Assembly (NCBI GenBank): GCA_002356455.1
Contig: AP017968.1
Span: 2,418,001-2,482,000, forward strand
Origin: Fusobacterium varium
GTDB lineage: Bacteria > Fusobacteriota > Fusobacteriia > Fusobacteriales > Fusobacteriaceae
DNA length: 64,000 nucleotides
Direction of reading: 5' to 3'
The translations under genes were made by a program, and so were the position numbers. Below the pieces are notes generated by a model. That model had not been told where the DNA came from, searched no databases, and saw only the letters and a program-made list of their open reading frames with translations. This document shows positions 9,298 to 64,000 of this stretch, piece after piece; position 1 is the first letter of the stretch; every line of letters begins with the position of its first letter.

Positions 9298-11658
9298 ATG
9301 AAAATAAGAGAATATGCAGTAGATAACCTTGGCTGTGCTGGGTGTGCTGCTAAAATACAACATGAAGGTTCCAAAATGACTGGTATATTAAACAGCAATC
9401 TTGATCTTTATAAGAAAAAAATGATAGTTGAAACTGATGATAGTTTTGATGAAAATCAATTTTTATCAGCTATCAATAAAATTGCAGATAAACTTGAACC
9501 TGGAACTAAAATATATAAAAAAGAAAATGAAGAAATCAAAACAAGAGAATATGTTGTAGAAAATTTAGGCTGTGCAGGATGTGCCGCTAAAATACAACAT
9601 GAAAGTTCTAAATTAAAAGGAGTTATTAACAGTAATCTTGATCTTTACAAGAAAAATATAACTGTTGAAACTGATTCATCTTTTGATGAAGAAAGTTTCT
9701 TGGAACAGGTAAATACAATAGCTGATAAATTAGAACCTGGAACTCTGATATACAAAGCTGAAACTGAAGATGATAATGATGAATCCAAAGCTAAGAGAGA
9801 AAGAGAATTGGTATTAGAAAAAGCTGAAGAAAAAAGAGAAAAGCTGCTTCTGATTACTGGAGCTGTTTTATTTATTATTTCTGTTTTTCTTAAATCTTTT
9901 CCTATGATAAAGTTAGCTGTATCAATAGCAGCATATATTATCCTAGGTGGTGATGTAGTTCTCAAATCATTTAAAAATATTGCAAAGGGAAACTTTCTTG
10001 ATGAAAATTTCTTGATGACTATTGCTACATTCGGTGCCTTTTATCTTGGAGAAACAACTGAAGCTGTTGGAGTGATGCTTTTCTATAAAGTAGGAGAATA
10101 TTTCCAAGAATCAGCTGTAAGAAACTCAAGAAAATCTATTGAAAAGCTTTTAGATATCAGACCTGATTATGCAAATATAAGAGATAAAAATGGTGAAGTA
10201 GTAAAGATTTCTCCAAAAAAATTAAAAGTTGGAGATATCATAATTATAAAATCTGGAGAAAAAGTTCCAGTAGATGGAATTGTTGTAAAGGGTGAAAGTG
10301 ATTTAAATACTGCTGCTCTTACTGGAGAATCTGTTCCTGCAGATGTTGCTGTAAATAGTGAGGTTTTAAGTGGAAGTTTAAATGGTGCTGGAGTTCTTGA
10401 AGTAAAAGTCACAAAACTTTTCAGTGATTCTACTATCAATAAAATAATAGAAATGGTAGAAAATGCAAGCAACAAAAAAGCTGAATCAGAAAAATTCATT
10501 ACAAAATTTGCTAGATATTATACACCTATAGTTGTAGTGATAGCTTTAATAGTTGGACTTGGGTTCCCTGCACTATTTGGTAATTTCAATATGTGGTTTG
10601 GAAGAGCATTAATATTCCTTGTTATATCTTGTCCATGTGCTTTGGTATTATCCGTACCTCTTACTTTTTTCAGCAGTATAGGGAAAGCATCAAAAAGCGG
10701 TATTCTTATCAAAGGGGGAAACTATCTTGAAGCTCTTACTACCATAGGTGCTGTTGTTTTTGACAAGACTGGTACTCTTACTAAAGGAAAATTTAAAATA
10801 GACAAACTTGAAGCTGTAAATGAAAGTGAAGATAATCTTTTAAAAACAGCTAAAATAGGTGAATTTTACTCAAATCACCCAATAGGAAAAGCTATTCTAA
10901 GTTATGGAAGTATAGAAGTAAATGAAGAATATATAGAAGGGTACAAAGAACTTTCTGGATTTGGAGTGCTTTCTTATTATGAAGGCAAAATGATACTTAT
11001 AGGAAATTATAAACTTATGAAAGAATATAAGATAAAGGCAGAAGAAAAACATTATGCTGGTACTGTTCTTTATGTAGCAGAAGATAATGTATTCCTAGGA
11101 TATGTATATATTTCTGATGAAATAAAAGAAGACTCGCCACTAACTATAGAAGGATTAAAGAAATCTGGTATCCAAAGTTATATGCTTACTGGAGATAACA
11201 ATAAAATAGGGGCTGTTGTTGGAGAAAAGCTTGGATTAAATCCTGAAAATGTATATTCTCAATTATTGCCACAGGATAAAGTAAGTAAACTTGAAGAAAT
11301 CAAATCTAAAAACAATAAAGGTGTTGTTTTTGTGGGAGATGGTGTCAATGATGCTCCTGTATTATCTTTAGCTGATGTAGGAATAGCTATGGGTGGAGTT
11401 GGTAGTGATATTGCTATTGAAGCTGCTGATGTTGTTATAATGAAAGATGAACCTTCTAAAATACTGGAATTATTAAAAATAGCAAAACAAAATAAAAAAG
11501 TTGTTATGCAGAATATAATTATGGCTCTTGGAATAAAAGTTATAGTTATGATACTTGGAGTATTTGGTATAGCAAATATGTGGATGGCAATATTTTCAGA
11601 TGTTGGAGTATCTTTATTAGCTGTTCTTAATGCTTCACAAGGAATAAAGAGAAATTAA
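9298..11658 (+). CDS. P1B-type heavy-metal-transporting ATPase with two N-terminal HMA domains
   Basis: A 786-residue P-type ATPase of the inner membrane. Two HMA metal-binding domains are repeated with a 79-residue period, with CxxC cysteines at 13/16 and 92/95, each in NLGCAGCAAKIQHE. Core motifs follow: TGES, CPC in the transmembrane metal site (near 445), DKTGTLTKG (near 487, phosphorylated Asp), NHPIGKA and GDGVNDAP. The last membrane helices contain a Lys (ALGIKV) and an Asp (FSDVG), the P1B-2 signature for Zn, Cd or Pb export (CadA/ZntA). GGAGG lies 7 bases before the ATG. A single-gene unit with its own promoter and terminator. Confidence 0.93.
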   Translation: MKIREYAVDNLGCAGCAAKIQHEGSKMTGILNSNLDLYKKKMIVETDDSFDENQFLSAINKIADKLEPGTKIYKKENEEIKTREYVVENLGCAGCAAKIQHESSKLKGVINSNLDLYKKNITVETDSSFDEESFLEQVNTIADKLEPGTLIYKAETEDDNDESKAKRERELVLEKAEEKREKLLLITGAVLFIISVFLKSFPMIKLAVSIAAYIILGGDVVLKSFKNIAKGNFLDENFLMTIATFGAFYLGETTEAVGVMLFYKVGEYFQESAVRNSRKSIEKLLDIRPDYANIRDKNGEVVKISPKKLKVGDIIIIKSGEKVPVDGIVVKGESDLNTAALTGESVPADVAVNSEVLSGSLNGAGVLEVKVTKLFSDSTINKIIEMVENASNKKAESEKFITKFARYYTPIVVVIALIVGLGFPALFGNFNMWFGRALIFLVISCPCALVLSVPLTFFSSIGKASKSGILIKGGNYLEALTTIGAVVFDKTGTLTKGKFKIDKLEAVNESEDNLLKTAKIGEFYSNHPIGKAILSYGSIEVNEEYIEGYKELSGFGVLSYYEGKMILIGNYKLMKEYKIKAEEKHYAGTVLYVAEDNVFLGYVYISDEIKEDSPLTIEGLKKSGIQSYMLTGDNNKIGAVVGEKLGLNPENVYSQLLPQDKVSKLEEIKSKNNKGVVFVGDGVNDAPVLSLADVGIAMGGVGSDIAIEAADVVIMKDEPSKILELLKIAKQNKKVVMQNIIMALGIKVIVMILGVFGIANMWMAIFSDVGVSLLAVLNASQGIKRN

Positions 11659-12339: not shown

Positions 12340-13780
12340 TATAAAAAAAGCTGAGTAACATTTAAAAAAAATGTTTTACTCAGCTCTCTTTTTTGTATAA
12401 TATAGTTACCACCCTAATTATACAAAGGAGACATTCATGCAAATCAAACATATTATCTCTAAAATCAATATAACAAATCTTTTAGGTAAAATCAAGAAAT
12501 ATTTTAAAAATGAACATTTTGAGGATGTTAAACAGACTATTCAAAAATTCTTAGCTTGTTCTATTGATAAATCTTTTCTCTCTCTTCAATGCCCTAATTG
12601 TCATGAGGCGCATAAAATTAAAGTTACTTGTAAATCTAGATTTTGTCCTTCCTGCGGTAAACGTTATTCTGCTGTTTGAACTGAAAAAACTTCCACTTCT
12701 CTTATTGATGTTAAACATAGAAGTGTCCTTTTTACTATTCCTGAAGAACTTAGAATGTTTTTCTTCTATGATAGAGACCTTTTAACTAAGCTTGCTTATG
12801 CTGTTAATGATGTTTTTAAATATCAATTTCATAACATTAAAGCAAAAAATCAAAGAATTCATAAAATTTCAAAATATTCCTCTAAATACTTTACTAACTC
12901 AGATATCATTCATTATGGATTGATTACTGTTATTCATACCTTTGGGCGCGATCTTAAATGGAACCCTCATATTCATGCTATTGTTACTTTAGGTGGATTC
13001 AATAAAAACTTCCAATTTCTTGAAAAAAAATATTTTCATGTCAATTCCATTGCTGGACAATGGAAAAAAATGGTTATTGATATTGTTAAATCTGGAAATT
13101 ATGACAAGCCTGAAATTAAAGCTAAAGCTTATGCTGCTGCTAACTACCTTTATCGCAAAAATACAAGATTCTTTTTCAATGTTGCAAAAAATGATTTAAA
13201 TAATAATATTTATGCAATTAAATATATTGGCAGATATCTGTCAAGAGCTCCTATCGCAGAATATAAAATTGTTGATTTCTATGATAATAAGGTTACTTTC
13301 TATTATGAAAGTCTTGCTGATGATAAACAAAGAATTGAGCTTACTTTAGATGTGGAAACATTTCTTTCCAAATTAATTATTCACATTCCCCCTAAACATT
13401 TCAAAATGATTAGGCGCTTTGGAATCTATTCTAGAAATATTAAATCAGAACTTAAAAACATCATGAAATTCATGAGAAAATATGTCTCTAAATATTCCAA
13501 TTCTACTTTTTATCAACTTGAAATATGGAACGCTTTTGGAGTAAATCCTTTTTATTGTTTTAAATGTAATGCCAGAATGAAAATTAAAAAAATATCATAT
13601 TTTAATATACATACAGGCTCCATTTGCTGGAAAGAATATCGCTAAACAGCTGATTAACAATCAGCTTTTTTGTGCTGTCAATTTTAATCTTATTCAATTA
13701 ATATATCTAATATGAATACAAAATAATTAACATTTTTTATTTTTTCAATAAATTTATCAAATTATAATTTCCTAAGAAAT
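12340..13780 (+). mobile_element. IS91-type element, copy A (1441 bp)
   Basis: The boundaries come from comparing this copy with copy B at 22.5 kb: identity starts at TATAAAAAAAG (12340) and stops at CTAAGAAAT (13780), giving 1441 bp in both copies, with about 15 substitutions and no indels. The left end is a long hairpin (GCTGAGTAA.../...TTACTCAGC) followed by a T run; near the right end, after the transposase, is AGCTGATT / AATCAGCT plus T run. No target-site duplication or terminal inverted repeats are visible, as expected for HUH (rolling-circle) IS91-type elements. The element's right end abuts the terminator of the minus-strand EcsC-like gene. Confidence 0.85.
12437..13645 (+). pseudogene. 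IS91-type Y2 transposase with in-frame TGA (copy A)
   Basis: A 403-codon frame interrupted only by TGA at codon 81 (12677-12679). Codons 1-80 are the IS91 zinc-binding domain (CPNC at 54-57, then a C.SRFCPSC cluster). Codons 82-402 are the Y2 transposase, with the HUH motif NPHIHA and paired tyrosines in YIGRYLSRAP. The frame is open on both sides and the TGA stands where related proteins usually have Trp (zinc-finger-CGK-x-W pattern), so a TGG-to-TGA change is the simplest view. The same TGA is in copy B. AAGGAG is present before the first ATG. Either both copies are dead and moved in trans, or the codon is read through. Confidence 0.85.
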
Positions 13781-22455: not shown

Positions 22456-23896
22456 TATAAAAAAAGCTGAGTAACATTTAAAAAAAATGTTTTACTCAGC
22501 TCTCTTTTTTGTATAATATAGTTACCACCCTAATTATACAAAGGAGACATTCATGCAAATCAAACATATTATCTCTAAAGTCAATATAACAAATCTTTTA
22601 GGTAAAATCAAGAAATATTTTAAAAATGAACATTTTGAGGATGTTAAACAGACTATTCAAAAATTCTTAGCTTGTTCTATTGATAAATCTTTTCTCTCTC
22701 TTCAATGCCCTAAGTGTCATGATGCGCATAAAATTAAAGTTACTTGTAAATCTAGATTTTGTCCTTCCTGCGGTAAACGTTATTCTGCTGTTTGAACTGA
22801 AAAAACTTCCACTTCTCTTATTGATGTTAAACATAGAAGTGTCCTTTTTACTATTCCTGAAGAACTTAGAATGTTTTTCTTCTATGATAGAGACCTTTTA
22901 ACTAAGCTTGCTTATGCTGTTAATGATATTTTTAAATATCAATTTCATAACATTAAAGCAAAAAATCAAAGAATTCATAAAATTTCAAAATATTCCTCTA
23001 AATACTTTACTAACTCAGATATCATTCATTATGGATTGATTACTGTTATTCATACCTTTGGGCGCGATCTTAAATGGAACCCTCATATTCATGCTATTGT
23101 TACTTTAGCTGGATTCAATAAAAACTTCCAATTTCTTGAAAAAAAATATTTTCATGTCAATTCCATTGCTGGACAATGGAAAAAAATGGTTATTGATATT
23201 GTTAAATCTGGAAATTATGACAAGCCTGAAATTAAAGCTAAAGCTTATGCTGCTACTAACTACCTTTATCGCAAAAATACAAGATTCTTTTTCAATGTTG
23301 CAAAAAATGATTTAAATAATAATATTTATGCAATTAAATATATTGGCAGATATCTGTCAAGAGCTCCTATCGCAGAATATAAAATTATTGATTTCTATGA
23401 TAATAAGGTTACTTTCTATTATGAAAGTCTTGCTGATGATAAACAAAGAATTGAGCTTACTTTAGATGCAGAAACATTTCTTTCTAAATTAATTATTCAC
23501 ATTCCCCCTAAACATTTCAAAATGATTAGGTGCTTTGGAATCTATTCTAGAAATATTAAATCAGAACTTAAAAATATCATGAAATTCATGAGAAAATATG
23601 TCTCTAAATATTCCAATTCTACTTTTTATCAACTTGAAATATGGAAAGCTTTTGGAGTAAATCCTTTTTATTGTTTTAAATGTAATGCCAGAATGAAAGT
23701 TAAAAAAATATCATATTTTAATATACATACAGGCTCCATTTGCTGGAAAGAATATCGCTAAACAGCTGATTAACAATCAGCTGTTTTGTGCTGTCAATTT
23801 TAATCTTATTCAATTAATATATCTAATATGAATACAAAATAATTAACATTTTTTATTTTTTCAACAAATTTATCAAATTATAATTTCCTAAGAAAT
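22456..23896 (+). mobile_element. IS91-type element, copy B (1441 bp)
   Basis: Same length and orientation as copy A, with about 15 substitutions spread over 1441 bp. It lies between the 5' side of spmA and the 3' end of the dpp operon. Its right end abuts the dppF terminator hairpin, just as copy A abuts the EcsC-like gene's terminator. No target duplication is seen. The two copies form a 10.1-kb direct repeat pair. Confidence 0.85.
22553..23761 (+). pseudogene. IS91-type Y2 transposase with in-frame TGA (copy B)
   Basis: 403 codons, with TGA at codon 81 (22793-22795), identical in position and flanking codons to copy A. Zinc-binding domain, HUH motif NPHIHA and Y-IGR-Y pair are intact. Differences from copy A include I/V, N/K, E/D, V/I, G/A, A/T, V/A and R/C changes; most of the substitutions alter amino acids, which suggests relaxed selection after copying. 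The copies therefore probably descend from an ancestor that already carried the TGA. Confidence 0.85.
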
Positions 23897-53018: not shown

Positions 53019-54098
53019 CTATAAATCAAGCAATTCATTTAAGTCTAAATCAAATTGCTCAAATAAATCAGCAGTTGGATTTAATATCGTTCCCTCTTCA
53101 TTTATCTCTATTTCACAATGTTGAGTTACATATTCTTTATTCAAACTAAAAAAATTAATAGATACATCATTTTTTTCTATTGATTTTTTATGAACTCCTA
53201 CTCTAATTCCATTAAAAATATGATCACTATGCGTTTCTAAAATAATTTGAACTCCTGCATTGGAAATAAAAATAAAAAATTCAGTTAATAATGACTGAGC
53301 TTTTGGATGTAGATGTATTTCAGGATTCTCTATTAAAACTATATTTCTTTCTTTTGCTGAAAGACATAATACTAAAATTGATACTAAATATCCCAGTCCT
53401 GCTCCAACATTTCTTCCACGAAATTCAAATCCATTTTTAATATAAATTCCTTTAAAAAAATCAGTTTGTCTTATTTTTTCAGTAGCTAAGCCATATCCTA
53501 ATATATAATTTAACCAATAATTTACCTGTCCTGCTAAAGTTTTATCACTTTTATTTTTAATTAATTTTTCATATAATTGTTCATTTTTACTTTTTTCAAA
53601 ATAAGCAATAGTATATTCACCATTAATTCCAACCTTGCAATTTTCTCCAATTTGTTTCTTATAAATATCTTGACTTCCTATTCTATCAGAAGATAAATAA
53701 TGGAAACTAACATTATGTTCTAAATTTTTTTGACATTTATCAAAATAATTCTCAAAAGTAAACCCTATCTCACAATCAATACATCTTTTTTTTAATACTA
53801 TATTTCCATCTTCTGATTCATATATTTCTTTTTTACAATGTATATCTTCAAAATATAAATCCATTTCAATTTTTTTAGGATTAGTTTTATAGTTTCTTAT
53901 TTCTCTAAAATCATCAAAAGATATCAAATCTCCAAATGTGTCTCTAAAAGATGTACATCCTTGTGAAAATAATAATAAAGATTGAATAATTGTTGATTTT
54001 CCAGAAGAATTCCCTCCCACTAATAAATTTAAATTTTTAAATTTTATATCAACTTTATCTATACTTTTATATCCATTTATTTTTAATCTTTTTATCAT
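53019..54098 (-). CDS. AAA/ABC-like ATPase with DUF3696-type C-terminus
   Basis: A 359-residue ATPase: N-terminal IKRLKINGYKSIDKVDIKF, Walker A GGNSSGKST (about 33-41), a central insertion, the signature-like region RNVGAGLGYLVSIL (about 229-242), Walker B IVLIENPEIHLHP (about 253-265), ETHSDHIFNGIR (about 287-298) and a C-terminal ILNPTADLFEQFDLDLNELL, the DUF3696 end. SMC/OLD-like ATPases of this type recur in anti-phage systems as sensors or drivers. The gene overlaps DUF262 by 4 bases (ATGA-type). Confidence 0.82.
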   Translation of the reverse strand: MIKRLKINGYKSIDKVDIKFKNLNLLVGGNSSGKSTIIQSLLLFSQGCTSFRDTFGDLISFDDFREIRNYKTNPKKIEMDLYFEDIHCKKEIYESEDGNIVLKKRCIDCEIGFTFENYFDKCQKNLEHNVSFHYLSSDRIGSQDIYKKQIGENCKVGINGEYTIAYFEKSKNEQLYEKLIKNKSDKTLAGQVNYWLNYILGYGLATEKIRQTDFFKGIYIKNGFEFRGRNVGAGLGYLVSILVLCLSAKERNIVLIENPEIHLHPKAQSLLTEFFIFISNAGVQIILETHSDHIFNGIRVGVHKKSIEKNDVSINFFSLNKEYVTQHCEIEINEEGTILNPTADLFEQFDLDLNELLDL

Positions 54099-55222
54099 AT
54101 ATTACTCCCTAGTAAGTTTTTAATCTTTGAAAACCTTTTTTCAACTTTTGTTTTATTATCTCTATTTCTACTTAAACTTTCCAAAAATTCTTGATCCCCT
54201 ATTAATGTCATTATATATTCTAAATAATATTTTCTATTTTCTCTTAAATATAAATGAGTAAAATATATTATTGTTTCAAATAAGGCCATATTAACAGGAT
54301 TTCTTTTATTAGATTGTGTAGGTAATCTAAAAGCATCTTTATTTTGTAAAGAATATATGGTTTTTATTGCTTGCTCAAAGTCTATCTTAAGTTTTTCTAT
54401 TCTTTCATCATCCAATTTATTCAAATATTTCATTATATGCCCCAAAAATTCATCTATGTCTCCATTATATTCATATTTTTGACCTTCTACTAAAAAATCT
54501 TTATCTTCAAAATAAATATAGAATCCTAAAAATCGCAATATCAAATATCGATCTTTCATCCTAGACTGAATATTATCCCCCAACATTTCTTTTAAATAAT
54601 TATTTTCAGATAATTCTTTTAATAATTTTGTAGATTTTCCTTGATATAATGCATTTCTCATTTCTTGATTGTTAAGTGTTGTTCCTCCTCTATTTACTCT
54701 ATCAAAAATATCGAATAATATTTTATCTGGAGTTGGTGGTTTTATAACTTGAAAGAATAATTGAAAATCCTCAATTTTTGATTGATACATTGGTTCTAAT
54801 TCTCTAAAGTAACACCCATTTAAGTCTTTTAAAATTTTTAAATCTTTTAACTTAAAATCATTGTTTAAAAAACGAAAAAAAGTATTTAATCTTTGCTTTC
54901 CATCAATGATTATATGCGTCCCTTCCTCATCAGAATTTGTATAAATTAATTGTAAAGGAAGCCCCATTATAACACTTTCTATCAATTCTCTTTCTTGATG
55001 TGGTTTCCATACAGTACTCCTTTGAAATTCAGGATCTAATTTAATTTTTCCCTTTTCTTTTCTTCTATTTAATTCAAAAATTGAAAATTGTTCTCTTTCA
55101 ATTTTTATAACAACATTTGGATAATTATTTTCTTCACTTTCGTTTTTTACCTTATTTGGTAACAAATCTTCATCAATATCATCTAACATTTCATCATTAA
55201 TATTTTCATCCAACATTGACAT
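54095..55222 (-). CDS. DUF262 domain protein (ParB/GmrS-like nuclease fold)
   Basis: A 375-residue protein. After an acidic ~35-residue N-terminus it has the DUF262 motifs LDPEFQRSTVWKPHQERELIESVIMGLPL region (about 57-85), IIDGKQRLNTFFRF (about 98-111; ParB-like DGQQR variant) and FDRVNRGGTTLNNQEMRNA (about 166-184). No DUF1524/HNH domain follows, unlike GmrSD type IV restriction enzymes. GGAGAG precedes the ATG. First gene of the three-gene operon. DUF262 proteins commonly act in restriction of foreign DNA. Confidence 0.85.
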   Translation of the reverse strand: MSMLDENINDEMLDDIDEDLLPNKVKNESEENNYPNVVIKIEREQFSIFELNRRKEKGKIKLDPEFQRSTVWKPHQERELIESVIMGLPLQLIYTNSDEEGTHIIIDGKQRLNTFFRFLNNDFKLKDLKILKDLNGCYFRELEPMYQSKIEDFQLFFQVIKPPTPDKILFDIFDRVNRGGTTLNNQEMRNALYQGKSTKLLKELSENNYLKEMLGDNIQSRMKDRYLILRFLGFYIYFEDKDFLVEGQKYEYNGDIDEFLGHIMKYLNKLDDERIEKLKIDFEQAIKTIYSLQNKDAFRLPTQSNKRNPVNMALFETIIYFTHLYLRENRKYYLEYIMTLIGDQEFLESLSRNRDNKTKVEKRFSKIKNLLGSNI

Positions 55223-55373: not shown

Positions 55374-56057
55374 TTAAAAATTATTTTTTAAATCATTTAT
55401 ATAATTATAAAAAGTTTTTCTACTTATTTTATAGTTATCTATAAAATACTTTACATCTTTTTTTCTACTATTTATATATCCATCTATTATTTCATTTTTT
55501 AATACTTCAGGAATTTTTCTTTTAGGCCTTCCCATTTTTTTAATAGTTAATTTCTGACCTTCAGTTATTCTTTTGACAATATCATCTCTTTCTTTTTCTG
55601 ACTGTTCAAAAGCTACTTTTATTTGCTTTCTTAAAATATTTTTTAAAGTTTCTACAATTCCTTTTATCAATGGAGAAAATGTATCATCTATCTCAATATT
55701 TTCTATTTTATCATATATTTCAACCTGACTATTAAAAATCTCTGTATTTAAATATTGTTCATTTAAAAATATTAAATTTATCTTTCTTTTCCAAAGATTC
55801 AAATAGTCATTATATCCTTCTTCTCCATCTCTGCTCATTCTACTGACACTGTCAAAAATGATAGTATCTCCTTCTCTTACAATTTTTATTAATTTTTTCC
55901 ATTCTGGTCTATCTGAAGTTGTTCCAGTGAATTTTTCTTCAAAAAAAATAAGATCTTCCAGCCTTTCTTTATAATATTCTTTTATATTTTTTTCTTGTCT
56001 TTCAAGTTTTTGATCTTTTGTTGATACCCTACAATAAGCATATAAATTTCCAGACAT
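55374..56057 (-). CDS. Serine recombinase (resolvase/invertase family)
   Basis: A 227-residue protein: catalytic Ser12 in LYAYCRVSTKDQ, the second core motif FDSVSRMSRDGEEGYND (near 70-86), a long helix and, after GRPKRKIPE, a C-terminal helix-turn-helix ending in the ISRKTFYNYIND type DNA-reading helix. The size fits resolvases and invertases rather than large phage integrases. GGAG precedes the ATG. Three motif copies in the upstream region (56074-56201) may be its binding sites. It could act on an invertible element or as the mobility gene of the island. Confidence 0.9.
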   Translation of the reverse strand: MSGNLYAYCRVSTKDQKLERQEKNIKEYYKERLEDLIFFEEKFTGTTSDRPEWKKLIKIVREGDTIIFDSVSRMSRDGEEGYNDYLNLWKRKINLIFLNEQYLNTEIFNSQVEIYDKIENIEIDDTFSPLIKGIVETLKNILRKQIKVAFEQSEKERDDIVKRITEGQKLTIKKMGRPKRKIPEVLKNEIIDGYINSRKKDVKYFIDNYKISRKTFYNYINDLKNNF

Positions 56058-59756: not shown

Positions 59757-59984
59757 CTATTTTATTAAATAATCTGTCATTTTTCTCAATTCTGCTTTTA
59801 TTTCTTTTATATCTTCATATAAAGCTTTATTGTCTTCTTTTCTCTGTTGAGATAAAAATTTTACTTGCATTTCATACAAGCTTTTATCTACTTTCTTTTC
59901 CATATGAGCCATAATAAACTTATGATACCCCATAAGAATTCCTCCAACTGTTACAGCTATTTTAAAATACTCTGTCCATTCCAT
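59757..59984 (-). CDS. Small phage membrane protein (XhlA/spanin-like)
   Basis: A 75-residue protein with one N-terminal hydrophobic helix (about 7-20) and a charged coiled coil (about 33-75). This build fits hemolysin XhlA-type or other lysis-accessory proteins next to holins. AAGGAG precedes the ATG, and it directly follows the holin-like gene. Assignment rests on size, topology and position. Confidence 0.6.
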   Translation of the reverse strand: MEWTEYFKIAVTVGGILMGYHKFIMAHMEKKVDKSLYEMQVKFLSQQRKEDNKALYEDIKEIKAELRKMTDYLIK

Positions 59985-59995
59985 TTATCTTCTCC

Positions 59996-60334
59996 TTAGT
60001 TTCCTATTTTCTTATCAAAATGTTTCTTACCTAAAATAACTGCTCCTAAACTTCCTACAAGTGCTGTTAATTCTCCAGGTATAGGAAGGCTATATATTTG
60101 TATTCCTGTAAAAGCAGAAATATAAGGAGTTATTATATGATGAAATATTACTAATGTACTATAGACATAAAATAAATGTAATATTCCTCCTTTTTCTAAA
60201 AGTGAAGAAAATACTTGCAGTCTCTGCTTTTCTACATCTGCCATAATTTTATTCACTTCATCAGGTTGTAGATATTTTTTTAAAATATCAGGTAAAAAAT
60301 TACTAACTATATTTAAAACAGTTTTCTTAAACAT
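59996..60334 (-). CDS. Phage holin-like protein
   Basis: A 112-residue protein: an amphipathic N-terminal part (about 1-45) and two or three hydrophobic segments (about 52-72, 82-102), with a basic C-terminal KKHFDKKIGN. Size and position between endolysin-like and XhlA-like genes fit a holin (3TM type). AGGAGG precedes the ATG. Sequence motif evidence is weak; the call is by context. Confidence 0.6.
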   Translation of the reverse strand: MFKKTVLNIVSNFLPDILKKYLQPDEVNKIMADVEKQRLQVFSSLLEKGGILHLFYVYSTLVIFHHIITPYISAFTGIQIYSLPIPGELTALVGSLGAVILGKKHFDKKIGN

Positions 60335-60343
60335 ATTATCCTC

Positions 60344-60913
60344 CTATTTCCAATTATTTTCTATATTGTTATATCTTCTTTTAACATCTTCTGGTCTCTC
60401 TTTTCCCCATTTAAGTCCTAATTTAAAGTTCAAAATATCCTGAGAAGAGAGAAGTTTTTTATTTTTTATAAATCTGTGCATAAGTCCATTTTTACTGATA
60501 TTAAATTGATTGTGATAATCTACTAAATGAACAAATGTCTTTTCATTTTCAAACTCTGGTACTCCTTCAAGACTAGCCACATAATTTACCATCTGTTGTA
60601 TATGTTCCCTGTCAAGCTTGTCTATATCAACCCTGAATAGCTTTAGTCTTTCATTCAAATGTTTTATATCTTTGCCAAGATTCAATAATTTTTCCATATC
60701 CTGATCTGAAAATCCACATATATTTTTTAAAAAGTTTCTTGCCCTTATATTATGTGTCACATCGAACTGACTTCTACCAAAGCTATAACCTGATTTTCCA
60801 CCTGCATAACTGAATTTGCATATAGCATTTTCATTTCCTGATATTTCATTTAAGGTTATTACCCTCATTATTTTTTCTACATTTATATTTTCCATTATTT
60901 GTTTTATATTCAT
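60344..60913 (-). CDS. Phage endolysin-like protein (lysozyme-like fold)
   Basis: A 189-residue soluble protein. An early Glu (VITLNEISGNENA, about 18-30) is followed by a SYAGGKSGYSFGRSQFDVTHN segment (about 35-55), the G-x-S-x-S/Y-FG-x-x-Q-x-D pattern of phage lysozyme-like muramidases. The rest is helical and ends with WKG-like KWGKERPEDVKRRYNNIENNWK. It lies between the radical SAM gene (13 bases upstream) and the holin, the typical place for a lysis gene. Cell-wall cleavage is the likely role; active residues not proven. Confidence 0.68.
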   Translation of the reverse strand: MNIKQIMENINVEKIMRVITLNEISGNENAICKFSYAGGKSGYSFGRSQFDVTHNIRARNFLKNICGFSDQDMEKLLNLGKDIKHLNERLKLFRVDIDKLDREHIQQMVNYVASLEGVPEFENEKTFVHLVDYHNQFNISKNGLMHRFIKNKKLLSSQDILNFKLGLKWGKERPEDVKRRYNNIENNWK

Positions 60914-60926
60914 TTATAATCAGCTC

Positions 60927-62378
60927 CTAATAGCTTAATTTCTCTAAAAAATATTTATTCACTGAATTTAATAAAGTTGGTGTATGAATCCACATAAAAT
61001 GTTTTTCTTTTAAATTGGTAAGAATCATATCTTTGTCATTTTTAAATATTTCATCAAAGAATAAATTACCTTCTTGATCTATATGAAAAGTATTCTCTAT
61101 ATCACTTGTTAATTTTTCATTTAATATTTTAATATCATATTCCTTACATATGGCTATTACTTGTTCATCTGGATTTTTGATATAAATTGTTCTTTCATCT
61201 GAATTAGTACTTCCTATTATATATTTTAGGAAATGATAGATATTTTTATGTTTTTCATCAAATTCTATATTTACTCTTGCTATTGGAACATTCATATCAA
61301 ACTTTGAAATTAGTTTTGCCCACATTTCTGGCTGTAATGTATCCTTAGTTAATTCTCCATTTTTAAATTTTTCTTTAACACAATTAAAATGAGAGTTATC
61401 AACATCTTTATTAAAAATATATTCTCTCATTTTTTCTTGTGAAAGCTTCTCGTTTTCAAAATCTCTATGTTTATTACACCAGTTAATATCTCCATTACCA
61501 TCAATTGTATACATTATTTGACATTCATTTAATAGGTGATCTTTATCTACAATATGAAAAACTGATTCCATTATTTCTCCCATATCTTTTTCTTTCGTCT
61601 CTTTTTCTGCTTTATTTATCAAATAAGTATATGCTTTCCTTAAAAAAATATTACAGGCTTCAATATATTCTGGTGATTGCTGCTCTGTATAATAAAGAAA
61701 TTTCCCCCTTCTTAAAATATCTTTATATTCATCCTGAATAAGCATAGGATTATTTAGTATTTGTTCTGCAGTTGCTAAAACAGTTGATATTTTAATATCT
61801 TTATCATATTCTCCTCCATTGACTTTATATAAAAATTCTTTATACAATTTAATATTTCTTTGCACAATATCAAATCCACTCTCTTTTTTTCCTATTAAGT
61901 GCCTATTTTTATCATAAACTTCTTTATCATTATCTGTAGAAATCATTATACCCACATAATTTTCATTGATAGATTTCATTTTTATTAGAGTTTCCTTTAC
62001 TTTATCATCAAATATTATCCCATTTGTTGTATAAGTAAGTCCTATTTTATTTCTCTCTTCTAATGAATAATTATTTAAAATATGATCACATATTTTATTT
62101 ATTGCCTCAGTATTTAATGTTGGCTCTCCACCAAAAAAGCATATACATAATTGGGAATATTCATAATCTGGGGTTTGAGTATATTTTAAAAATTTGTCTA
62201 TCCCTGCATCTAAATTTTGAAAACATCTTTTAAACTTTTCTTCTGTATCTAATCTAAAAGGTTTTTTAGCTTTTTGATAACAAAACTCACATCTCAAATT
62301 ACAGCTTTCATCTACCTTTATAAATAAAACAAATGGTTCAAACTTATTATAGTATCTACTTCTTTTTATTAATTTCAT
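60927..62378 (-). CDS. Radical SAM enzyme with Twitch/SPASM-like motif, RiPP-maturase candidate
   Basis: A 483-residue radical SAM protein. The cluster motif is CNLRCEFCYQ (Cys near 27, 31, 34), followed by the GGEPTLN stretch (near 83-89, SAM binding) and a TIM-barrel pattern. Residues about 283-298 show C-x9-G-x4-C (CQIMYTIDGNGDINWC), exactly the first part of SPASM/Twitch auxiliary-cluster domains, and a further Cys in HFNCVKEKF. Peptide-modifying radical SAM enzymes and sulfatase maturases share this design. The ~120-residue C-terminal part is of unknown type. It lies 18 bases after the CxxxE-repeat protein gene, 13 bases before the endolysin-like gene, within the phage late operon. Target most likely the neighbouring peptide (inference). 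Confidence 0.85.
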   Translation of the reverse strand: MKLIKRSRYYNKFEPFVLFIKVDESCNLRCEFCYQKAKKPFRLDTEEKFKRCFQNLDAGIDKFLKYTQTPDYEYSQLCICFFGGEPTLNTEAINKICDHILNNYSLEERNKIGLTYTTNGIIFDDKVKETLIKMKSINENYVGIMISTDNDKEVYDKNRHLIGKKESGFDIVQRNIKLYKEFLYKVNGGEYDKDIKISTVLATAEQILNNPMLIQDEYKDILRRGKFLYYTEQQSPEYIEACNIFLRKAYTYLINKAEKETKEKDMGEIMESVFHIVDKDHLLNECQIMYTIDGNGDINWCNKHRDFENEKLSQEKMREYIFNKDVDNSHFNCVKEKFKNGELTKDTLQPEMWAKLISKFDMNVPIARVNIEFDEKHKNIYHFLKYIIGSTNSDERTIYIKNPDEQVIAICKEYDIKILNEKLTSDIENTFHIDQEGNLFFDEIFKNDKDMILTNLKEKHFMWIHTPTLLNSVNKYFLEKLSY

Positions 62379-62396
62379 TATAGTCTCCTTTATACT

Positions 62397-62825
62397 CTAG
62401 TTTCCGCCTTCTCTATTATTACTTTCATTGCTATTAGATTCTCCAAGATTTGATTCTTTTTTGTTACATTCACTATTATTACATTCACTTCTATTACACC
62501 AATTTTTAACTGATTGAGTAGCATTATAGACTTGTGTAATTTTACTTTGTACCATTAATTCTCCTATAGCAACATTAGTTATACTGTTAGTAACAGAAGT
62601 TGCTCCTATTCTACTTGAATAAGTTTTGAGCCATGTAATCCAATTATTAAAAAGAGAAGCTCTACATACTTCCCCTGTTACTGCTCTTGCACTTCCTGCA
62701 CTTGCTGTTCCCCAAGTAGAAACTATTTGATCTAATCCAGTTTGAATAATATTTACTGAAGCAGCGGTTATTATATCTCCTGCTGCTCTAGCTTCTGTAT
62801 TATATGTTTCTATTCTATTCTCCAT
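62397..62825 (-). CDS. Phage protein with CxxxE pentad tail, candidate radical SAM substrate
   Basis: A 142-residue protein. Residues 1-105 are helical and rich in Ala/Ser/Thr, without a signal peptide or membrane helix. The C-terminus is six consecutive pentads [C/S]-N-x-x-E (residues 110-139): CNRSE, CNNSE, CNKKE, SNLGE, SNSNE, SNNRE, then GGN. CxxxD/E spacing is the hallmark of ranthipeptide core peptides. An upstream in-frame TTG at 62843 exists; the ATG at 62825 is preferred, with GGTGG upstream, overlapping the previous gene's stop by 11 bases. The radical SAM gene follows after 18 bases. A structural phage protein that merely has repeats is the alternative. Confidence 0.75.
   Translation of the reverse strand: MENRIETYNTEARAAGDIITAASVNIIQTGLDQIVSTWGTASAGSARAVTGEVCRASLFNNWITWLKTYSSRIGATSVTNSITNVAIGELMVQSKITQVYNATQSVKNWCNRSECNNSECNKKESNLGESNSNESNNREGGN
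62409..62498 (-). repeat. 15-bp in-frame repeats encoding six pentads
   Basis: Six 15-base units, mostly TGTAAT..../TCTAAT.... and ending GAA, encode the [C/S]-N-x-x-E pentads. The units differ at silent and non-silent positions, so they are not a recent perfect microsatellite. Confidence 0.8.
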
Positions 62826-63153
62826 CTTCTTCCACCCTTTCAAAAGTTATATTTAAATCTTCAATTAAGTTAGAAGTAGTAATATCTTCACCACGTGGAG
62901 TATGGATATATACTTCATGAGATAAATATTTTAAATTATTATAAATCTCTCCATCTATATTTAATTGATTTACACTTTGAATATTCTCTATGTTTAATAT
63001 TCTTCCAGTATTTTCATAATCAACATTTCTAAGCTTTATTACAGTTTTATTAGTATCATTTAAAAATCTAAATGCAAGAGTACTACTTATTGTAAATTCT
63101 CCTATCTTAGTTATTCCTCTTTCTTTACTTATATTATTAAGTTCTATTTTCAT
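62815..63153 (-). CDS. Phage late-region hypothetical protein
   Basis: A 112-residue, mostly beta-strand protein (alternating charged and Ile/Leu/Val residues) with no recognised family. It lies 12 bases after the tail-fibre gene, with AAGGAGG before the ATG, and its stop overlaps the start region of the CxxxE-tail protein. Position suggests a tail or baseplate accessory protein or fibre chaperone. Confidence 0.65.
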   Translation of the reverse strand: MKIELNNISKERGITKIGEFTISSTLAFRFLNDTNKTVIKLRNVDYENTGRILNIENIQSVNQLNIDGEIYNNLKYLSHEVYIHTPRGEDITTSNLIEDLNITFERVEEDGE

Positions 63154-63165
63154 ATATTCCTCCTT

Positions 63166-64000
63166 TTACCCCCATACAGGGTTATATACTTTTCCAAATC
63201 CTGATATACTTTTAGCTGCTGTTCCTTTTAAATCTCCTGTCATTGTGCTTCCAACCAGTTTTACTGCTGTAGTGTCATTGAAAGTAGTTGGTTTATCTGC
63301 TACATTAGCCCAATTAGTAGGGAAGATTGCTGGCACATTTAATAAATCAGCCCATTTTACACTTACTGCTGTAGTGTCTCCCTTTTCTCCTTTAGGTCCT
63401 TGTATCCCTTGTGGTCCAATAGGAACTATGATATCCTGTGTAGCATTATTTGTTAAGGTTATTGTATAGATATTATTTCCATTGCTATCCTTATTTTTAA
63501 AAGTTATACTTTTTACACTTATTCCAGTATCTCCTTTTGCTCCAGTTAATCCTATATCCCCTTTCTCTCCCTTATCTCCTTTTTCACCTTTTAAAGTAGC
63601 TCTATTATCAACAATATATTTATCCAGTTCTGCTTTTTTACTGCTAGTATGGGAATTTAATTCAACCTTTTCTCCTTCTACAAGCTGATCTATTTCTAAT
63701 TCTTTAGCTGTCACATGATTATTTATTTCTTCTTTTTTACTGCTAGTATGAGTATTCAATTCTTGCTTTTTAGTAGTATTATAAGTATCAAGCTCTCCCT
63801 TTTTAGCTGTTGTATAAGTGGTTAGCTCTCCTTTTTTAATATCAGTATGAGAAGTTAATTCAACCTTCTCTCCTTCTGTAAAATGATCTATTTCTTTTTC
63901 TTTTCCTGTAGTATAGTCATTTATTTCTTCCTTCTTGCTATTAGTATGAGTATTTAGTTCATGTTTTTTTGTTTCTTTATGATTATCTAATTCTAATTTT
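63166..64000 (-). CDS. Phage tail fibre with hendecad and collagen-like repeats (partial)
   Basis: The frame is open from the right edge, giving about 277 visible residues; the N-terminus is outside the window. The first ~132 visible residues are twelve perfect 11-residue repeats of the type K-x-E-[L/I]-[N/D]-x-[H/Y/F]-x-x-x-K, which predict a right-handed (hendecad) coiled coil. Then come collagen-like Gly-x-Y triplets (GEKGDKGEKGDIGLTG), a small domain, a second Gly-x-Y stretch (IGPQGIQGPKGEKGD) and a C-terminal tip ending ISGFGKVYNPVWG. The build is typical of trimeric phage tail fibres. It begins the late gene cluster seen here. Confidence 0.88.
   Translation of the reverse strand, partial: KLELDNHKETKKHELNTHTNSKKEEINDYTTGKEKEIDHFTEGEKVELTSHTDIKKGELTTYTTAKKGELDTYNTTKKQELNTHTSSKKEEINNHVTAKELEIDQLVEGEKVELNSHTSSKKAELDKYIVDNRATLKGEKGDKGEKGDIGLTGAKGDTGISVKSITFKNKDSNGNNIYTITLTNNATQDIIVPIGPQGIQGPKGEKGDTTAVSVKWADLLNVPAIFPTNWANVADKPTTFNDTTAVKLVGSTMTGDLKGTAAKSISGFGKVYNPVWG
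63604..64000 (-). repeat. 33-bp in-frame repeats (hendecads) in the tail-fibre gene
   Basis: Twelve tandem 33-base units, each coding one 11-residue repeat, run from the right edge to about 63604. Repeat unit sequence is conserved at K.E[LI] and variable elsewhere. Confidence 0.8.

Follow-up and report, generated by a model that had tools for sequence, protein, structure and literature searches.

A graded Cys/Ser pentad array beside a PapB-like radical SAM gene in a prophage fibre-tip cassette of Fusobacterium varium

The analysed DNA, here called the window, is a stretch of 64,000 nucleotides from Fusobacterium varium (contig AP017968.1, positions 2,418,001 to 2,482,000). The locus of interest lies within a prophage whose portal and head genes are Mu-like and which also encodes a 940-aa tape measure protein and a large serine recombinase. 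In the order of transcription, its genes encode a hub-like protein (536 aa), a 320-aa protein, a collagen-like fibre (446 aa), a 112-aa protein, the proteins P0001 and P0002, a 189-aa protein and small lysis-type products. From the tail fibre to the lysis-type genes, all lie on the minus strand. The 3' part of the tail-fibre gene occupies positions 63166..64000, the gene continuing past the window end, and is followed by the gene for the 112-aa protein (62815..63153), to which no family could be assigned and which overlaps the start of P0001. P0001 itself, 142 aa long, is encoded at 62397..62825 (start at 62825), and P0002, a 483-aa radical SAM enzyme by its motifs, at 60927..62378. The two genes are 18 nt apart, with a strong ribosome site. 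Downstream, the 189-aa protein (60344..60913) probably occupies the endolysin slot, because a related prophage, L207, has an M15 endolysin at this place; two further small genes (59757..60334), coding for products of 112 and 75 aa with hydrophobic segments, are probably associated with lysis. Elsewhere in the window, an AAA ATPase-like gene and a DUF262-type-like gene (53019-55222) are flanked by a resolvase-like gene (55374-56057) on one side and by chromosomal genes on the other, and may constitute a defence or cargo patch at the prophage edge.

P0001 consists of a non-repeated N-terminal part of 109 aa, six pentads encoded by six 15-bp units at 62409..62498 (residues 110-139), and a final GGN followed by the stop codon, so that the array reaches the C-terminus. 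The pentads are CNRSE, CNNSE, CNKKE, SNLGE, SNSNE and SNNRE: Cys opens units 1-3 and Ser units 4-6, and every unit has Asn in second and Glu in fifth place, exactly as the original prediction had described for these coordinates. The phasing of Glu and Asn is not due to chance. When the same 30 residues were shuffled, six Glu fell in one phase of five with a frequency of 8e-6 (exact value 8.4e-6), and six Asn with a frequency of 6e-4; at the DNA level, a pattern of three CxxxE followed by [CS]xxxE had a single match in the window and none in 100 shuffles. The earlier remark that the Cys and Ser codons, TGT and TCT, differ by a single base applies, in that form, to unit 5 alone, because the Ser codons are TCA, TCT and AGT in units 4, 5 and 6, respectively; AGT is also one base away from TGT, TCA two. 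No family was found for P0001 in Pfam, NCBIfam, PHROGs or PADLOC, and its AlphaFold2 model was unusable (pLDDT 46).

The assignment of P0002 to the radical SAM enzymes is based on a CxxxCxxC cluster motif (C26/C30/C33), a GGEP motif at residues 83-86 and a match to Pfam PF04055 scoring 40.1 bits, above the cut-off of 29.5. Further along the sequence, C286-x9-G296-x4-C301...C333 fits the twitch pattern C-x(9-15)-G-x4-C...C, and these four residues are invariant across 16-18 aligned maturases; a single auxiliary cluster of the twitch type is thus predicted. Features of a SPASM domain with two auxiliary clusters were not found, since only C286, C301 and C333 align and the later SPASM cysteines are missing. 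The best NCBIfam model was that of PapB, NF047865 (67.1 bits, E 1.6e-18), with an alignment spanning the auxiliary-cluster region; this score is far under the family cut-off of 340 bits, which the true members L197 and L188 passed in the same search with 470.8 and 370.6 bits. Aligned with these two PapB proteins, P0002 lacks the N-terminal extension and carries about 140 C-terminal residues of its own. A tree gave it no resolved grouping with PapB: it stood at the end of a very long stem branch of 3.78 changes per site, among the RiPP maturases (support 90/89), and two PapB sequences were nearest by path. L188 was also its nearest relative among 97 other Fusobacteriota genomes (59 bits, E 1e-16, 33% identity over 212 residues). 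No match at 1e-18 was found among 391 genomes from the class to which a Lachnospiraceae genome belongs, a search run without a positive control. AlphaFold2 models were weak and usable only for the general radical SAM core; with such a model, the top Foldseek match was CteB (5why, E 2.7e-4). Several other assignments were rejected. Viperin (pVip) similarity was of superfamily level (NF038283, 40.4 of the 180 bits required; PADLOC pVip, 37.7 bits), phrog_1802 matched 12 of 14 control genomes and is not a specific family, and the phage matches H1-H3 turned out to be SCIFF-like or other ordinary maturases.

The known PapB-type enzymes come from peptide clusters of bacteria. In ranthipeptides, a thioether joins the sulfur of Cys to a non-alpha carbon of another residue. 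In the PapA/PapB system (freyrasin; ranthipeptides; NF047865), PapA contains six Cys-x3-acid motifs and is encoded next to the radical SAM gene; the bonds made by PapB join Cys to either Asp or Glu within Cx3D/E motifs, one unit being sufficient (PMC9413430). In PapB, the Cys thiol binds to the first auxiliary cluster and C3 of Asp loses a hydrogen to the adenosyl radical, while in SkfB a single auxiliary cluster is enough for a related reaction (PMC10470005). The neighbouring gene of P0002 is likewise precursor-like, with three CNxxE motifs 18 nt upstream, and the three Cys predicted at its auxiliary cluster could leave a site for a substrate thiolate. The pair would work like PapA/PapB, but P0002 is not counted among the PapB proteins because the score cut-off and the SPASM feature, when tested, were not reached. 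What is new with respect to PapA/PapB is the mixture of Cys and Ser, with Ser in three of the six units, the twitch-type enzyme, which lacks an N-terminal extension and a full SPASM and whose C-terminal part is new, and the location at a phage fibre tip, with no transporter. SkfB and the CteB/SCIFF maturases share auxiliary-cluster cysteines with P0002, SkfB also the single auxiliary cluster, but act on other substrates, and SCIFF enzymes have a full SPASM domain. The 'Cys-every-fifth' maturase CefB (NF038107) is similar in the spacing of its substrate Cys, as judged by the family name only; P0002 did not match its model.

A PapB-type ranthipeptide operon was also observed within the same bacterial order, in a 1.3-Mb Fusobacteriota genome (L189:4148-10285). 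It starts with a 55-aa CxxxD peptide and includes ABC transporter genes and a PapB scoring over the cut-off (L188), which is the nearest relative of P0002 found. It differs from the P0001/P0002 pair in the transporter genes, in the short, Asp-containing precursor with no Ser units, and in the full SPASM domain.

In order to follow the array among homologues, IMG/VR was searched by P0002, by P0001 and by the CxxxE pattern, and a single contig was retrieved (2856193548_000005, L004), which carries the only other allele of P0001 in the searched collections, again together with P0002; none was found in the 97 other Fusobacteriota genomes or in phage records. The pattern scan of IMG/VR and genomes returned at least about 180 other loci, nearly all of them 15-bp DNA repeats with near-identical units, and no radical SAM gene was found by motif search beside a CxxxE array in other loci among the matches listed. 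Two candidate loci, L126 and L021, were examined and set aside.

The array of the second allele reads CNRAE, CNASE, CNRIE, SNTSE, SNSNE and SNNRE. Cys or Ser, Asn and Glu are identical between the alleles in every unit, so the other homologue retains the conserved Cys and Glu positions, and each allele has six 15-bp units, three with Cys followed by three with Ser. Having equal unit number and order, the two alleles show no sign of the Cys/Ser exchange by which the array had been suggested to grow and decay, although two alleles are few. At the framework positions 1, 2 and 5, 4 of 18 codons differ, all synonymously, with no amino-acid change; at positions 3-4, 7 of 12 codons differ and six change the residue (Fisher p 0.015; probability that by chance none of six replacements falls on the framework, p 0.0016). 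The array as a whole has changed faster than the remaining P0001, with 11/30 against 12/112 codons differing (p 0.0016). This conservation pattern, observed directly in one allele pair, on which all these tests rest, points to purifying selection on a strict C/S-N-x-x-E framework within a fast-changing array. Unit 4 is the sole informative Ser unit: its Ser codon is TCA in one allele and AGT in the other, with all three bases different, its Glu codon is GAA or GAG, its Asn is kept, and the residues L-G became T-S. Preservation of Ser, Asn and Glu, despite complete replacement of the Ser codon and change of both x residues, fits poorly with the proposal that the Ser units are an inert spacer. 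When the arrays at 62409-62498 and L004:5881-5970 are compared, units 1-4 show a synonymous divergence several times that of the remaining gene, while units 5-6 are near-identical; this suggests unit replacement or local recombination, in addition to selection.

The array is found directly before a radical SAM gene of the Cys-acid-linking type, an adjacency established by direct observation; therefore a protein of the tail module may be cross-linked on half of its repeats. We infer that P0001 is the substrate of P0002 and that the bond is a thioether between Cys and Glu. By analogy with PapB, the auxiliary cluster of P0002 would bind the Cys thiolate and the enzyme would abstract a hydrogen from the side chain of the Glu four residues on, forming one Cys-Glu ring for each CNxxE pentad, three in all. 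The SNxxE pentads, having no thiol, would stay open and be kept as a framework for spacing, charge or recognition by the enzyme or a partner. We regard this account, thioethers in the three Cys pentads and uncross-linked, conserved Ser pentads of a protein that acts in or with the tail tip, as the most likely one and give it an even chance of being correct. The idea that only three units are crosslinked was one of three offered by the original prediction and is the best supported of them, by the adjacent PapB-like gene, the links themselves being predicted rather than observed. Counting against the account as a whole are the score of P0002 far under the PapB cut-off, its very long branch without a resolved grouping in the tree, the missing N-terminal extension, its few SPASM cysteines, the weak AlphaFold2 models and the existence of only two known alleles.

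Two alternatives concern the chemistry of the array. Tails rich in N, S and E are common, and modification of P0001 is a prediction; the array might be an unmodified hydrophilic tail, acting as spacer or metal-binding element, and P0002 might have a different target, for example the fibre or the 112-aa protein. The purifying selection on the framework in an otherwise fast-changing array, the identical 3+3 order in both alleles and the adjoining PapB-like gene make this distinctly unlikely. We regard as similarly improbable that P0002 modifies all six pentads, forming Cys-Glu thioethers in the Cys units and, in the Ser units, either a link derived from Ser, for instance an ether between Ser oxygen and Glu carbon, or another radical modification. 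Retention of Ser, Asn and Glu in unit 4 would agree with it, and ether links are reportedly made by radical SAM enzymes in darobactin; against it, the cluster is ligated by a thiolate in PapB, no Ser precedent was found in the PapB-like enzyme group, and one unit only is informative.

The cassette was defined by comparison with three sister prophages from IMG/VR (L205-L207), whose DNA is about 81-89% identical to that of the window phage up to position 63566, a point within the collagen-like stretch of the fibre gene. With L205 and L206, the match picks up again at 60915, where the 189-aa gene starts. The intervening 2.65 kb (60916..63565), containing the fibre C-terminus, the 112-aa gene, P0001 and P0002, are without DNA homology in the three sisters, where the fibre tip is of another kind and is accompanied by a tail-fibre accessory protein of the DUF4376 family (PF14301, E 1.4e-7). 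The same chromosome (strain Fv113-g1) has a further prophage of this family at 900000-913000 (L231), with a hub 77% identical, another fibre tip and a lysozyme; nothing lies there between fibre and lysozyme, and the radical SAM cassette is missing. Related phages have exchanged the cassette in one piece, fibre C-terminus included, as for a fibre-tip module, and since the tip segment is swapped or absent in the sisters, P0001 and P0002 come and go together with the fibre tip.

Because both genes form one cassette with the fibre C-terminus, P0001 is proposed to act in or with the phage tail tip, a virion role that we infer from this location. Neither leader protease nor transporter was seen with the pair; the product would not be exported by a transporter of its own and would probably remain joined to the N-terminal 109 aa. 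Cargo genes are often located at the tail-lysis junction, and the location of the cassette may reflect a moron insertion instead of a structural role. In particular, P0001 and P0002 might form a prophage-borne RiPP cassette, whose bacteriocin-like or signalling peptide is released by lysis and has no function in the virion. The sister prophage of the same chromosome, with nothing at this place, and the absence of any family placing P0001 among tail proteins are compatible with this. Transporter, protease and immunity genes are missing, however, the N-terminal part is long for a leader, and the replaced segment takes in the fibre C-terminus and, in the sisters, the tail-fibre accessory protein; we consider such a cassette unlikely.

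The tail-tip proposal can be extended, as a tentative and rather doubtful possibility, to a phage whose own radical SAM enzyme ties side chains in a protein of the receptor-binding module, half of the array being left open by Cys-to-Ser replacement and the residues between the anchors varying fast. If true, radical chemistry may serve viruses to stiffen their tail proteins covalently, and sequence annotation would miss such a modification. With its fixed anchors and the fast-changing x residues between them, the array resembles a constant scaffold that displays variable residues, and the three Cys and three Ser units provide a built-in natural control for the contribution of Cys. The open-access literature searched yielded no paper in which a radical SAM enzyme modifies a phage tail protein, which does not prove absence.

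Other features were observed in the window. A metal-transport P-type ATPase (9298-11658) has a duplicated N-terminal metal-binding domain, corresponding to a 237-bp tandem repeat with 78% similarity, and near-identical genes for a 296-aa transposase-like protein are present in several copies, at 12755-13645 and 22871-23761 of the window and in the second prophage region (L231:8081-8971).
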